Shown here: positions 45,526 to 51,078 of the stretch, in pieces | Layout: each line of letters begins with the position of its first letter | Position numbering within the stretch: position 1 is the first letter of the stretch | From: Armatimonadota bacterium | GTDB lineage: Bacteria; Bacteroidota; Ignavibacteria; OLB7 | Assembly: GCA_020850315.1 (NCBI GenBank) | Contig: JADZEY010000113.1 | Location: forward strand, 1 to 52,699 | Direction of reading: 5' to 3' | Length of the DNA: 52,699 nt | Notes under the pieces: model-generated | Told to the model about the DNA's origin: nothing | Databases searched by the model: none | The model's input: only the letters and a program-made list of their open reading frames with translations | Translations under genes and position numbers: made by a program

Positions 45526-46779
45526 CTACGGTATCGCGTCTTCGGCCTTAAAGTGGCTGCTTTCCCGTTCGGCGATGGTGCTTGCGCTTGGCTTGTGCAG
45601 GACCGGAAGCGACGGGTCATCCATCGGAAGCAGGTCAAGCTCGGTTTGCTGGATGATGTAATCCACCACGGCACGGTGGTCTTGGTTGTTTTCGTTCCAG
45701 ACCTTCAGCTGGCGTGCGGCCCCGGTTCCGTTGTCAAGGATGTCGTGGATGTACTCAATCTGCTCGCGCGAACCCAGGTCATCCACAACGTCGTCAACAA
45801 AATGGAGAAGCTCGCGAATCAGGTCGCGAGTCCATTTTTCCTTCTGTTTCCCGAAGTCAATCAGTTTGCCATCAATTCCGTAACGGACAGCGCGCCATTT
45901 GTTTTCCATCAGCAGTGCGCGGCTATAGACCCGGAAGGAGAGGTTTTTCCGGTAGAGTGCGAACAGCTTGGCGGCAATGGCTTGGATCAGCGCGGCGATT
46001 GCTGTGGTCTCCCGAATCGTCATCGGCAGGTCGCAGATGCGAACCTCTAAAGTTGGGAAGCTGGGATGCGGGCGGATATCCCACCAGATCCGCTTCGGGT
46101 TATCAATGCACCCGGTTTTCACCAGCAGCTTGCAGAACGAATCATACTCCCCCCAGCTTTGGAACGGGTCTGGAATCCCCGTACGCGGGAACCGCTCGAA
46201 CACTTTCGAGCGGTAGCTTTTCAGCCCGGTTTCGATTCCAGTCCAGAAGGGGGAGTTGCTGGTAAGGGCAAGCAGATGCGGCAGGAAGTACCGCATCTCG
46301 TTCATGATCTTGATCTGCGTCTCGCGGTTCTCGATGCCGATATGGATGTGCATTCCAAAGATCAACAGCGAGCGCGCCAGCACCTGCATATCCTCCACCA
46401 ACAACCGGTAGCGGTCGTCGGGGTAGATTTCTTGTTGCGCCCAGTGTGATGTTGGATGGGTGCTTGCCGCCCCAATTTTCAGCCCGTTTGCTGCGGTTAG
46501 GTTCCGAACAATGGAGCGGATGCTTTGCAGTTGGGTGAATAACTCCTGCGAGTTTTTGCAGACCGTTGTCCCAATTTCCAGCATTGACCCATGCATCTCC
46601 GGTTTCACCTGTTCTTCCAGGACGGCTTTCCCTTTTGAGAGGAGCTCGAACTGAAGATGCGATTGCAGCTCCCGTGTTTCGGGATGGATCACCATGTACT
46701 CCTCTTCCACGCCAAGCGTAAAACTTGGGCGTTGGTAGGGGTCAGCCTCGGTATAGGTGTCTTGGACGTAGCCTTCCAT
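45526..46779 (-). CDS. Carboxylate-amine ligase of the GCS2 (YbdK) family
   Basis: GCS2-family enzymes join a carboxylate, often glutamate gamma-carboxyl, to an amine using ATP. The 417-residue product has 'FTLGVEEEYMVI' (metal-binding glutamates, about residues 20-31), 'HGSMLEIGTTV', 'FGMHIHIGI' (about 145-153), 'IWWDIRPHPSFPTLEVRICD' and 'MENKWRAVRYGIDGKLIDF'. These are the family landmarks and the active-site residues look intact. The true substrates of YbdK-type ligases are mostly unknown. It starts 33 bp after the ATP-grasp stop on the same strand, so the two ligases are probably made together. Confidence 0.88.
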   Translation of the reverse strand: MEGYVQDTYTEADPYQRPSFTLGVEEEYMVIHPETRELQSHLQFELLSKGKAVLEEQVKPEMHGSMLEIGTTVCKNSQELFTQLQSIRSIVRNLTAANGLKIGAASTHPTSHWAQQEIYPDDRYRLLVEDMQVLARSLLIFGMHIHIGIENRETQIKIMNEMRYFLPHLLALTSNSPFWTGIETGLKSYRSKVFERFPRTGIPDPFQSWGEYDSFCKLLVKTGCIDNPKRIWWDIRPHPSFPTLEVRICDLPMTIRETTAIAALIQAIAAKLFALYRKNLSFRVYSRALLMENKWRAVRYGIDGKLIDFGKQKEKWTRDLIRELLHFVDDVVDDLGSREQIEYIHDILDNGTGAARQLKVWNENNQDHRAVVDYIIQQTELDLLPMDDPSLPVLHKPSASTIAERESSHFKAEDAIP

Positions 46780-46812
46780 GCGATGTCGTCCGTGTGTGTG
46801 TTCTGGTGTTGA

Positions 46813-47811
46813 TTACTTGGTGCTTTTCTTGACTGCTTTTGCCGGCTTCTTTGCTGGGGCAGCCGGTGCTGCCACCGTCTCGGTTTGCCCAAACAGGAAC
46901 TGACTCCAGCGGTATTCTTCCGGCTTGGCGCGCCCTTTCAATGCTTCGTTGATGGCATAGGTTGCCACCGTCTCCACAAACCATTGGAAGTTTTCATCCC
47001 CCACCGACGTTGCCTCGGCATCGGGAGCGGGGTTCATAAAATCAATGGCGTAGGGGATTCCGTCGCGGACGGCGAACTCCACGGTGTTGATGTCGTAGCC
47101 CAGCGCGTCGCATAGCTTGATGCAGTCGCCAGTTATCCGGGCGTGCATCTCGGGCGATGGAGCGAACGGCGCGACGTAGCGAAGGTGATGTGGGTTGCGC
47201 GGCTCGTAGGGCATGATGTGAACATATTGCCGCCCAACGCAGTAGCAGCGGTAGTATTCCTCAAAATCAATCCCTTCCTGCAAGGTCATGCACAACTGCC
47301 CGGTTTGGTTGTAGGCGTTGAAGAACTCATCAATGGAGTTGACCTTATAGACGTGCCGCCAGCCGCCGCCATCGAACGGCTTCAGCCAGGATGGGAAGCC
47401 AACGTAGTTGAAAATTTCCTCCCAGTTCAACGGGTAAATCAGGTTCCGCATGGACTGGCCGGTGGTGTTTGGTGGATGCTGCTTGTGGGGAAGCAGCACC
47501 GTTTTGGGCACAGCAACGCCCAATTTTTTTGCCAGCGCGTAGTTGAAGAACTTGTCGTCGGCAGTCCACCAGAAGGGGTTGTTGATAACGCGAGTTCCGT
47601 TCAGCACGGCGTTTTTCAGCATGGAGCGGTAGAACGGGATGTCCTGTGAGATGCGGTCAATAATCACGGTGTATTGGCTGATCTCTTCCAGCGTCACCCC
47701 GCCAACCTGCACAAACTCGGCACGAACATCGGCCCCACGGCGGTTGATGGCCTCCACTAATGCTGGCGGGAACGTCTGTTCCATGCCAAAAAGTACAGCG
47801 ACTGTTTCCAT
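46813..47811 (-). CDS. ATP-grasp ligase of unknown substrate
   Basis: The product is 332 residues. An N-terminal pre-ATP-grasp domain ('VAVLFGMEQTFPPALVEAI') is followed by the ATP-grasp fold: 'WWTADDKFFNYALAKKLGV', the lysine strand 'GFPSWLKPFDGGGWRHVYKV', 'QEGIDFEEYYRCYCVGRQYV' and the metal-binding end 'EFAVRDGIPYAIDFMNPAPD'. This resembles RimK/glutathione synthetase-like ligases, which activate a carboxylate as an acyl phosphate. The last ~20 residues are Ala/Lys/Pro-rich ('APAKKPAKAVKKSTK') and probably disordered. It is the first gene of the two-gene ligase cassette and divergent from yajQ. Confidence 0.85.
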   Translation of the reverse strand: METVAVLFGMEQTFPPALVEAINRRGADVRAEFVQVGGVTLEEISQYTVIIDRISQDIPFYRSMLKNAVLNGTRVINNPFWWTADDKFFNYALAKKLGVAVPKTVLLPHKQHPPNTTGQSMRNLIYPLNWEEIFNYVGFPSWLKPFDGGGWRHVYKVNSIDEFFNAYNQTGQLCMTLQEGIDFEEYYRCYCVGRQYVHIMPYEPRNPHHLRYVAPFAPSPEMHARITGDCIKLCDALGYDINTVEFAVRDGIPYAIDFMNPAPDAEATSVGDENFQWFVETVATYAINEALKGRAKPEEYRWSQFLFGQTETVAAPAAPAKKPAKAVKKSTK

Positions 47812-49905: not shown

Positions 49906-51078
49906 ATGCTCATTCCACGCCAGAGTGCCTTGTTTGCACAGCAGCTTGCCAGCTGGTTTCCGGTGCTGGCCGTTACTGGCCCGCGGCAATCGGGAAAAAC
50001 CACGCTTGTTCGCCAGTTGTTTCCGCAGCTGCCGTATCGCTCCCTCGAAGACCCTGATATCCGGGCGTATGCCGAGGAAGACCCTCGCAGTTTTTTGGGA
50101 TCGGGTGGGATGATTGTTGATGAAGTGCAGCGGGTTCCGGGGTTGCTCTCCTACATCCAAACGATTGTTGACACACTTCCCAACTCATCCTTCATCCTAA
50201 CTGGCTCCCAAAATTTTGCACTGATTGAACGCATATCACAATCGCTTGCTGGGCGGGTGGGGTTGCTGACACTGCTGCCACTAAGCATCGCCGAACTTCA
50301 AGCGGGGGGCCACATCACAACCAGTTTCGAGCAAGCCGCTCTGCAGGGTGGCTATCCTCGAATTTTTGAGCGGGAGATACCCCCAAACATTTTCCATGCG
50401 AACTACATGGGAACCTACATCGAGCGGGATGTGCGGATGCTGAAAAACATCGGCGACTTGTCGGCATTTCAACGGTTTGTGCGGTTGTGCGCTGGGCGAA
50501 TTGGGCAGCTGCTGAATCTTTCATCGCTTGCAACAGATACCGGAATTTCGGTCAACACCGCAAAGTCATGGCTGTCGGTGCTGGAAGCAGGGTACATTAT
50601 TCAACTGCTTCGGCCATACCACAACAACTTCAACAAACGCCTGACAAAATCTCCAAAACTCTATTTTCTTGATACTGGTTTAGCTTGCTGGTTATTGGGC
50701 ATCGAACACGCAACGCAGTTGCAGCATCACCATGCACGGGGCGCGCTGTTTGAAAACCTTGTGCTGACGGAATTGTGGAAAACAGGGTTCAACACTGGGC
50801 GGCGAATAGAGACGTATTTCTGGCGCGATCATCATGGCCTTGAGGTTGATTGCTTAATCGAAGATGCTGGAAGGCTTCGGGCGGTTGAGATGAAATCCAC
50901 AGCCACCATCACCACCGACTTGCTGCGCGGTTTACAACGGTGGCGGCAACTTGCTGGCGAAGAAGTGACGGACGCAACAGTAATCTATGCAGGGAACCAG
51001 ATGGAGCAGCGGAGTGGAATTCGGGTGATCCCTTACCTTGACACAGGCCAGCTTGTAAAAACTGAGGTGGAGCCGTAG
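49906..51078 (+). CDS. AAA_14/DUF4143 ATPase with PD-(D/E)XK-like C-terminus
   Basis: The product is 390 residues. AAA domain: Walker A 'GPRQSGKTTL' (Lys31), Walker B 'MIVDEVQRVP' (Asp72, Glu73), sensor 'FILTGSQNF'. The DUF4143 part follows: 'LSIAELQ', 'YIERDVRMLKNIGDL', 'LRPYHNNFNKRLTKSPKLYF' and 'LDTGLACWLLG'. The C-terminus shows a nuclease-like series 'GALFENLVLTEL', 'GLEVDCLIE', 'AVEMKS', matching the PD-(D/E)XK pattern. The family is very common, often accessory, and without a settled function. The start ATG lies directly behind a terminator-like palindrome, so its promoter is unclear. Confidence 0.9.
   Translation: MLIPRQSALFAQQLASWFPVLAVTGPRQSGKTTLVRQLFPQLPYRSLEDPDIRAYAEEDPRSFLGSGGMIVDEVQRVPGLLSYIQTIVDTLPNSSFILTGSQNFALIERISQSLAGRVGLLTLLPLSIAELQAGGHITTSFEQAALQGGYPRIFEREIPPNIFHANYMGTYIERDVRMLKNIGDLSAFQRFVRLCAGRIGQLLNLSSLATDTGISVNTAKSWLSVLEAGYIIQLLRPYHNNFNKRLTKSPKLYFLDTGLACWLLGIEHATQLQHHHARGALFENLVLTELWKTGFNTGRRIETYFWRDHHGLEVDCLIEDAGRLRAVEMKSTATITTDLLRGLQRWRQLAGEEVTDATVIYAGNQMEQRSGIRVIPYLDTGQLVKTEVEP

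Follow-up and report, generated by a model that had tools for sequence, protein, structure and literature searches.

Predicted non-ribosomal amide-ligase pathway with a conserved gene set in Acidobacteriota and Bacteroidota

Evidence from gene neighborhoods, phyletic co-inheritance and structural models leads us to propose, with moderate confidence, that two adjacent ligase genes of the window (the whole 52,699-nucleotide stretch of DNA analyzed here) form the center of a conserved amide-ligase pathway, cytosolic and non-ribosomal, that combines an esterase-like hydrolase (est1), three ligases and a hydrolase slot occupied by either an M29 peptidase-like protein or a class-I glutamine amidotransferase (GATase). 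The gene set and its order, the co-inheritance of its members, their folds and their conserved catalytic residues emerge directly from the computational analysis. The product is probably a small peptide or amide of the gamma-glutamyl type, a view in which we infer every chemical step.

Cofactors, siderophores, antibiotics and protein tags are all known products of linked amide-ligase clusters. The present system, with three different ligase folds and with a central protein that belongs to no Pfam family, has been kept by hundreds of genomes from two phyla of major environmental importance. Should it turn out to make a small peptide or amide that is new, then a metabolite shared by many bacteria of soil and fresh water would so far have been overlooked.

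The ligase pair of the window

The two genes and the features of their products to which the argument refers are the following.

46813..47811, minus strand: ATP-grasp ligase gene, 332 aa, RimK-like fold, no Pfam model (open reading frame, AlphaFold2 model)
47359..47382, minus strand: ATP-binding lysine and glycine-rich loop of the ATP-grasp protein, K144-P-F-D-G-G-G-W151 (alignments)
47032..47043, minus strand: putative metal ligands of the ATP-grasp protein, D257-x-x-N260, both invariant in 55 relatives
46816..46881, minus strand: Ala/Lys/Pro-rich C-terminal tail of the ATP-grasp protein, residues about 311-332, pLDDT 56-71 by block
46780..46812, minus strand: 33-bp spacer between the two genes, which lie on the same strand, compatible with one transcript
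45526..46779, minus strand: GCS2/YbdK-type carboxylate-amine ligase gene, 417 aa, PRK13515 subfamily (open reading frame, PF04107, NF010039)
46699..46713, minus strand: GCS2 signature G23-V-E25-E26-E27, the GhExE ATP/Mg motif (28 relatives)

On the minus strand the ATP-grasp gene comes first and the GCS2 gene follows after 33 bp. The original prediction, made from the sequence alone, of two ATP-dependent carboxylate ligases at this distance on one strand was exact in coordinates, strand and spacing, and the identification of both proteins as such ligases is supported by family membership or by predicted fold. For the GCS2 protein, the Pfam match is to PF04107 (199.8 bits, 7.8e-59), the score against the NCBIfam model NF010039 (PRK13515.1 carboxylate-amine ligase) is 508.6 bits, above the curated equivalog cut-off of 371, and its profile (A8) matched YbdK (PDB 1r8g) at 1.3e-67. 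The ATP-grasp protein matches no Pfam family at E 0.001, GshB included, and its sequence similarity to RimK/LysX is weak, with 28.5 bits against rimK_fam (TIGR00768), far below the cut-off of 143.4. Its AlphaFold2 model (pLDDT 88, pTM 0.82) nevertheless supports a RimK-like fold, given that it aligns with RimK over 264 residues, that is, the whole catalytic domain (Z 22.8, rmsd 2.8), followed by ArgX/LysX (Z about 20.9) and Ddl (Z about 19).

The claim that the active-site motifs of both ligases are intact is borne out by the family-invariant residues. Invariant columns were computed from 55 ATP-grasp and 28 GCS2 relatives; since the window protein was the first row of each alignment, the window copies keep these residues. 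In the ATP-grasp family, K144, P145, G150 and W151 are invariant and G148 and G149 nearly so, in a region that aligns with the corresponding parts of Ddl and biotin carboxylase, and R188, E245, D257 and N260 are conserved as well. At the putative metal site, D-x-x-N replaces the usual E-x-N, with a one-residue insertion relative to Ddl in the alignment. The invariant residues of the GCS2 family are G23, E25, E26, E27, H144, H146, D234, R236, E245 and R247 (A8), the first four of which lie within the GhExE signature of this superfamily (PMC2588565).

The basic Ala/Lys/Pro tail of the ATP-grasp protein, which had been singled out as an oddity, is real. As an extension modeled with low confidence and poorly conserved, varying in both length and sequence among relatives, it does not amount to a meaningful oddity, and we discarded it as a functional feature.

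A larger operon and its variants

The GTDB genome collection was scanned for the ATP-grasp protein and yielded at least 575 stretches encoding it; the neighborhoods of 80 loci among these matches were analyzed, including loci from Acidobacteriota and Bacteroidota/Chlorobi/Ignavibacteria/Kapabacteria and one Planctomycetota record. Clustering of the open reading frames, with recurrent antisense frames from the first clustering discarded, revealed a set of recurrent neighbors: est1, a PF00756 esterase-type alpha/beta-hydrolase (40.6 bits); a protein resembling M29 peptidases (PF02073, 47.2 bits); and cpX, which is ligase-like, measures about 390-400 aa and belongs to no Pfam family. The commonest order, est1-ATP-grasp-GCS2-M29-cpX, is fixed in 23 loci. 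The median gaps along it are 59, 62, 59 and 46 bp, of which the second, from ATP-grasp to GCS2, was taken over 72 loci. Thus, the pair, originally taken for a self-contained two-gene cassette, is instead the center of a larger system that includes cpX, est1 and either the M29 protein or the class-I GATase.

No Pfam or NCBIfam model matches cpX at its cut-off, and the cpX profile found no match in the PDB below E 0.98. Its AlphaFold2 model (pLDDT 93, pTM 0.92) has a circularly permuted ATP-grasp fold, with best matches to YgiC (Z 25.8), YjfC (25.2) and the putative glutathionylspermidine synthase 3n6x (24.2), and further matches to human glutathione synthetase (24.0), E. coli glutathionylspermidine synthetase (23.6) and the fungal ligase Cp1B (22.9). 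By comparison, LysX and RimK match only part of cpX, at Z about 7.5. The order of the cpX motifs, ELQGFP before KPLYSFAGxGV, agrees with the circular permutation.

These folds bear on whether the system makes glutathione or a close analog, with GCS2 producing gamma-glutamylcysteine and an ATP-grasp enzyme adding a residue. The place of GCS2 within the glutamate-cysteine ligase superfamily and the glutathione-synthetase fold of cpX speak for such a thiol pathway, but GCS2 scores only 65.4 bits against gshA_cyano (TIGR02048), below the equivalog cut-off of 249, neither ATP-grasp enzyme falls in the GshB or GSS Pfam family, bacillithiol derivatives have been ascribed to Chlorobi (PMC6282198), and such a pathway would have no need of two more ligases or hydrolases. 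We consider this reading improbable, and the classical glutathione pathway itself is rejected given that the window proteins fall under the curated-model cut-offs. The original prediction had also stated that no glutathione-type gene lies nearby, which is true of the window; in intact operons, by contrast, the last gene encodes cpX with its glutathione-synthetase fold.

The hydrolase slot is variable. In many Bacteroidota, the place of the M29 gene is taken by one whose product has the class-I GATase fold (PF00117, 31.3 bits), with Cys, His and Glu invariant; the GATase (for instance L141:9718-10530, plus strand) and the M29 protein (for instance L160:5288-6121, minus strand) occupy the same slot between GCS2 and cpX.

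The partner ligases vary too. In several Bacteroidota families, the ATP-grasp gene is followed by that of another permuted ATP-grasp protein and then by GATase and esterase genes, with GCS2 absent or encoded elsewhere.

L146:9576-10928, plus strand: alternative permuted ATP-grasp protein, about 450-470 aa, also found at L145, L147, L150 and L155

This protein matches CP_ATPgrasp_2 at 23.7 bits, below the cut-off, and its association with the ATP-grasp protein, GATase and esterase is a second version of the system. Given this group, together with the ATP-grasp genomes of the survey described below that lack cpX (14 of 72) or GCS2 (also 14 of 72), the ligase set is not fixed, and the variation in partner ligases identifies the ATP-grasp protein as the hub of the system.

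A second PF00756 esterase gene (enterochelin-esterase-like, 53 bits, below the cut-off; for example L065:5994-6893, minus strand) lies divergently upstream of the operon, on the other strand, in 24 of the 80 loci.

In the window genome the remaining parts are dispersed, as the following two genes show.

C136:21569-22285 (L101, genome G000): est1 on another contig, with 24 of 27 family-invariant positions kept
C57:2176-3363 (L102, genome G000): cpX on another contig, with 52 of 54 family-invariant positions kept

With est1 and cpX on other contigs, the window represents a dispersed form in which only the central pair is still together; in our reading, the operon was broken up in this lineage, ATP-grasp and GCS2 staying side by side while cpX and est1 moved elsewhere. 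Neither a form of the GATase nor an M29 ortholog was found in the window genome, its best M29 match being a relative at 42.8 bits. Because the parts are scattered, the case for their co-operation in this genome rests on co-inheritance. A genome of the same family (G004) has est1 and cpX with neither window gene found, where loss and missing sequence are indistinguishable because the assembly is 95% complete.

The other genes of the window do not recur among the neighbors elsewhere, and we rejected as partners FloA, the nucleotidyltransferase, the HisA-like protein, RarA/MgsA, YajQ, the amidase and the DUF4143 ATPase. The last of these, an AAA_14 and DUF4143 ATPase gene (49906-51075, plus strand), lies close upstream of the pair; AAA_14/DUF4143 ATPase genes are often patchily distributed. 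The gene for the HisA-like protein (PF00977; 42314-43108, minus strand) sits beside those for the nucleotidyltransferase and RarA/MgsA, outside any histidine operon.

Co-inheritance of the ligases

To see whether the pair is conserved, 198 genomes drawn evenly from the phylum were searched for the ATP-grasp protein, GCS2 and cpX, and only strong matches were counted (ATP-grasp at least 226 bits; cpX at least 390 bits, except for one split gene; all 62 GCS2 matches). ATP-grasp and GCS2 occur together in 58 genomes, ATP-grasp without GCS2 in 14, GCS2 without ATP-grasp in 4 and neither in 122. With cpX included, all three ligases are present in 54 genomes and none in 122; the others have two ligases (ATP-grasp with GCS2 in 4, ATP-grasp with cpX in 4, GCS2 with cpX in 2) or a single one (ATP-grasp alone in 10, GCS2 alone in 2). 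Fisher tests, which take related genomes as independent, give p of 2e-31 for ATP-grasp and GCS2, 7e-34 for ATP-grasp and cpX and 2e-37 for GCS2 and cpX.

Of the hydrolases, the GATase was found in 49 of the 198 genomes, 48 of which are among the 72 with ATP-grasp and one of which lacks it, and the M29 form in two, neither of which has the GATase. In turn, est1 is present in 70 of the 72 ATP-grasp genomes and in 11 without ATP-grasp. A single family (f9) splits in one and the same way for each of the three ligases and the GATase, with 7 genomes carrying all four and 8 carrying none of them, which argues that they were gained or lost together; given this split, shared descent alone does not explain their co-occurrence.

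Where both genes of the pair are present, they are adjacent, in the same order and on the same strand, in 38 of 58 genomes and apart in the other 20. Conservation as neighbors, proposed originally as a check of the pair, was found over two phyla and beyond this genome, and neither protein proved to be a curated glutathione-pathway enzyme. In further samples, the ATP-grasp protein was found in 24 of 61 related genomes searched, and in 32 genomes reached through the 80 loci, GCS2 scores at least 570 bits in 28, with a weaker relative (328 bits) in one genome and no GCS2 in the other three. Twelve of these 32 were picked because GCS2 lay out of reach of the locus, and in eight of the twelve it is encoded elsewhere.

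That two ordinary, unrelated ligases became adjacent by accident, or are joined through shared regulation only, appears extremely unlikely. The 20 genomes in which the genes are apart would fit such a view, but there, too, ATP-grasp and GCS2 co-occur, and the order seen in the 38 adjacent pairs holds in Acidobacteriota as well; the adjacency and the co-occurrence (2e-31) together argue that the pair is not a product of chance, and accidental adjacency was rejected on these grounds. Spread on mobile elements was likewise rejected, as tblastn of the ATP-grasp protein against 72,556 plasmid and 50,697 phage records returned no match, and so was a role in anti-phage defense, for which PADLOC gave no match among five proteins. 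The gene set, a small one, is also carried by organisms in culture, namely Bryocella elongata DSM 22489, Acidobacterium sp. S8, Pontibacter sp. 172403-2 and Thermaurantimonas aggregans.

Predicted chemistry and comparison with known systems

With respect to the reactions, RimK, LysX and ArgX ligate glutamate or aminoadipate, and glutathione synthetase (GSS) and glutathionylspermidine synthetase (GspS) lengthen gamma-glutamyl peptides by a glycine or a spermidine. In GCS2 enzymes, a carboxylate, in most cases that at the gamma position of glutamate, is phosphorylated and coupled to an amine (PMC2588565), and linked ligases of different folds often form successive peptide bonds (PMC4431377). The simplest reading of the system is a three-step non-ribosomal synthesis in which GCS2 would phosphorylate the gamma-carboxylate of glutamate or an analog and couple an amine to it, the RimK-like ATP-grasp enzyme would add an amino acid, probably an acidic one, and cpX would add, or cap the product with, a further amine. 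The esterase est1 and the M29 or GATase enzyme would serve in trimming, recycling or release, acting on a precursor, the product or a by-product. Carrying this further, we tentatively suggest that the three fold types acting in sequence could yield a chemically new gamma-glutamyl-type conjugate, comparable in role to glutathione or glutathionylspermidine and made by an undescribed metabolite or cofactor pathway widespread in Acidobacteriota and Bacteroidota/Chlorobi/Ignavibacteria.

RimK-like enzymes can modify proteins too. Under the alternative of protein or peptide tagging, the RimK-like enzyme, GCS2 and cpX would attach glutamate-like or peptide tags that the M29 or GATase protein and the esterase remove, much as RimK acts on ribosomal protein S6 or in the manner of PafA/Dop. 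This is the main rival to a small-molecule product, since the hub comes closest in fold to RimK and, next, to ArgX/LysX, enzymes that attach glutamate or aminoadipate to proteins; moreover, GCS2 is related to the Pup ligase PafA (PMC2588565), and the pairing of ligases with a peptidase fits add-and-remove chemistry. However, the folds of RimK, LysX and Ddl are so alike (Z about 19 to 23) that fold does not pick the substrate of the ATP-grasp enzyme, and the cpX relatives of known function act on small molecules, glutathione and spermidine. Furthermore, among open reading frames of at least 25 aa in the operon loci, no conserved precursor-peptide, Pup-like or LysW-like frame lies in or beside the operons; the recurrent small frames are antisense to or overlap the second esterase gene, or overlap that of the alternative ligase, and none is a candidate peptide. 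We regard tagging as unlikely, and both a graspetide (ATP-grasp RiPP) cluster and pupylation were rejected for want of a conserved precursor or Pup-like frame.

The synthesis of a small gamma-glutamyl-type product, which we prefer, has parallels in the clusters of non-ribosomal amidoligases that Iyer and co-workers (2009) reportedly surveyed, in which ligases of different folds are said to be linked with peptidases and were predicted to make peptide metabolites, a principle taken up again in PMC4431377; here, similarly, three linked ligases of different folds accompany hydrolases. Amidoligase clusters are already known, and the present combination is apparently undescribed: in the open-access papers searched, the 2009 survey aside, we found no account of the set of est1, three ligases and hydrolase or of a thiol-related role for it.

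Compared with pupylation (PafA/Dop-Pup), the system has in common a GCS2-superfamily ligase with proteolytic partners, and differs in the absence of a Pup-like small-protein frame beside the operon genes. With respect to YbdK of E. coli (PDB 1r8g), the window GCS2 is a member of the same PRK13515/NF010039 family by the curated cut-off, with GhExE and the other invariant residues kept, and falls in a high-scoring group, presumably one clade, found in company with the ATP-grasp/cpX system; YbdK of E. coli is not known to lie in an operon of this kind. With profile A8, the cluster-linked GCS2 proteins reach 480 bits or more, and other PRK13515 members, in G006, G206 and G249, reach 300-390 bits. 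The window ATP-grasp protein shares with RimK, LysX and ArgX the whole-domain fold (Z 20.5-22.8) and the ATP-grasp catalytic residues, and is set apart from them by its score below the rimK_fam cut-off, by D-x-x-N in place of E-x-N and by a different gene neighborhood. Finally, although it has no sequence-level match to glutathionylspermidine synthetase, YgiC/YjfC or eukaryotic glutathione synthetase, cpX has the same permuted fold as these enzymes over its full length (Z 22-26).
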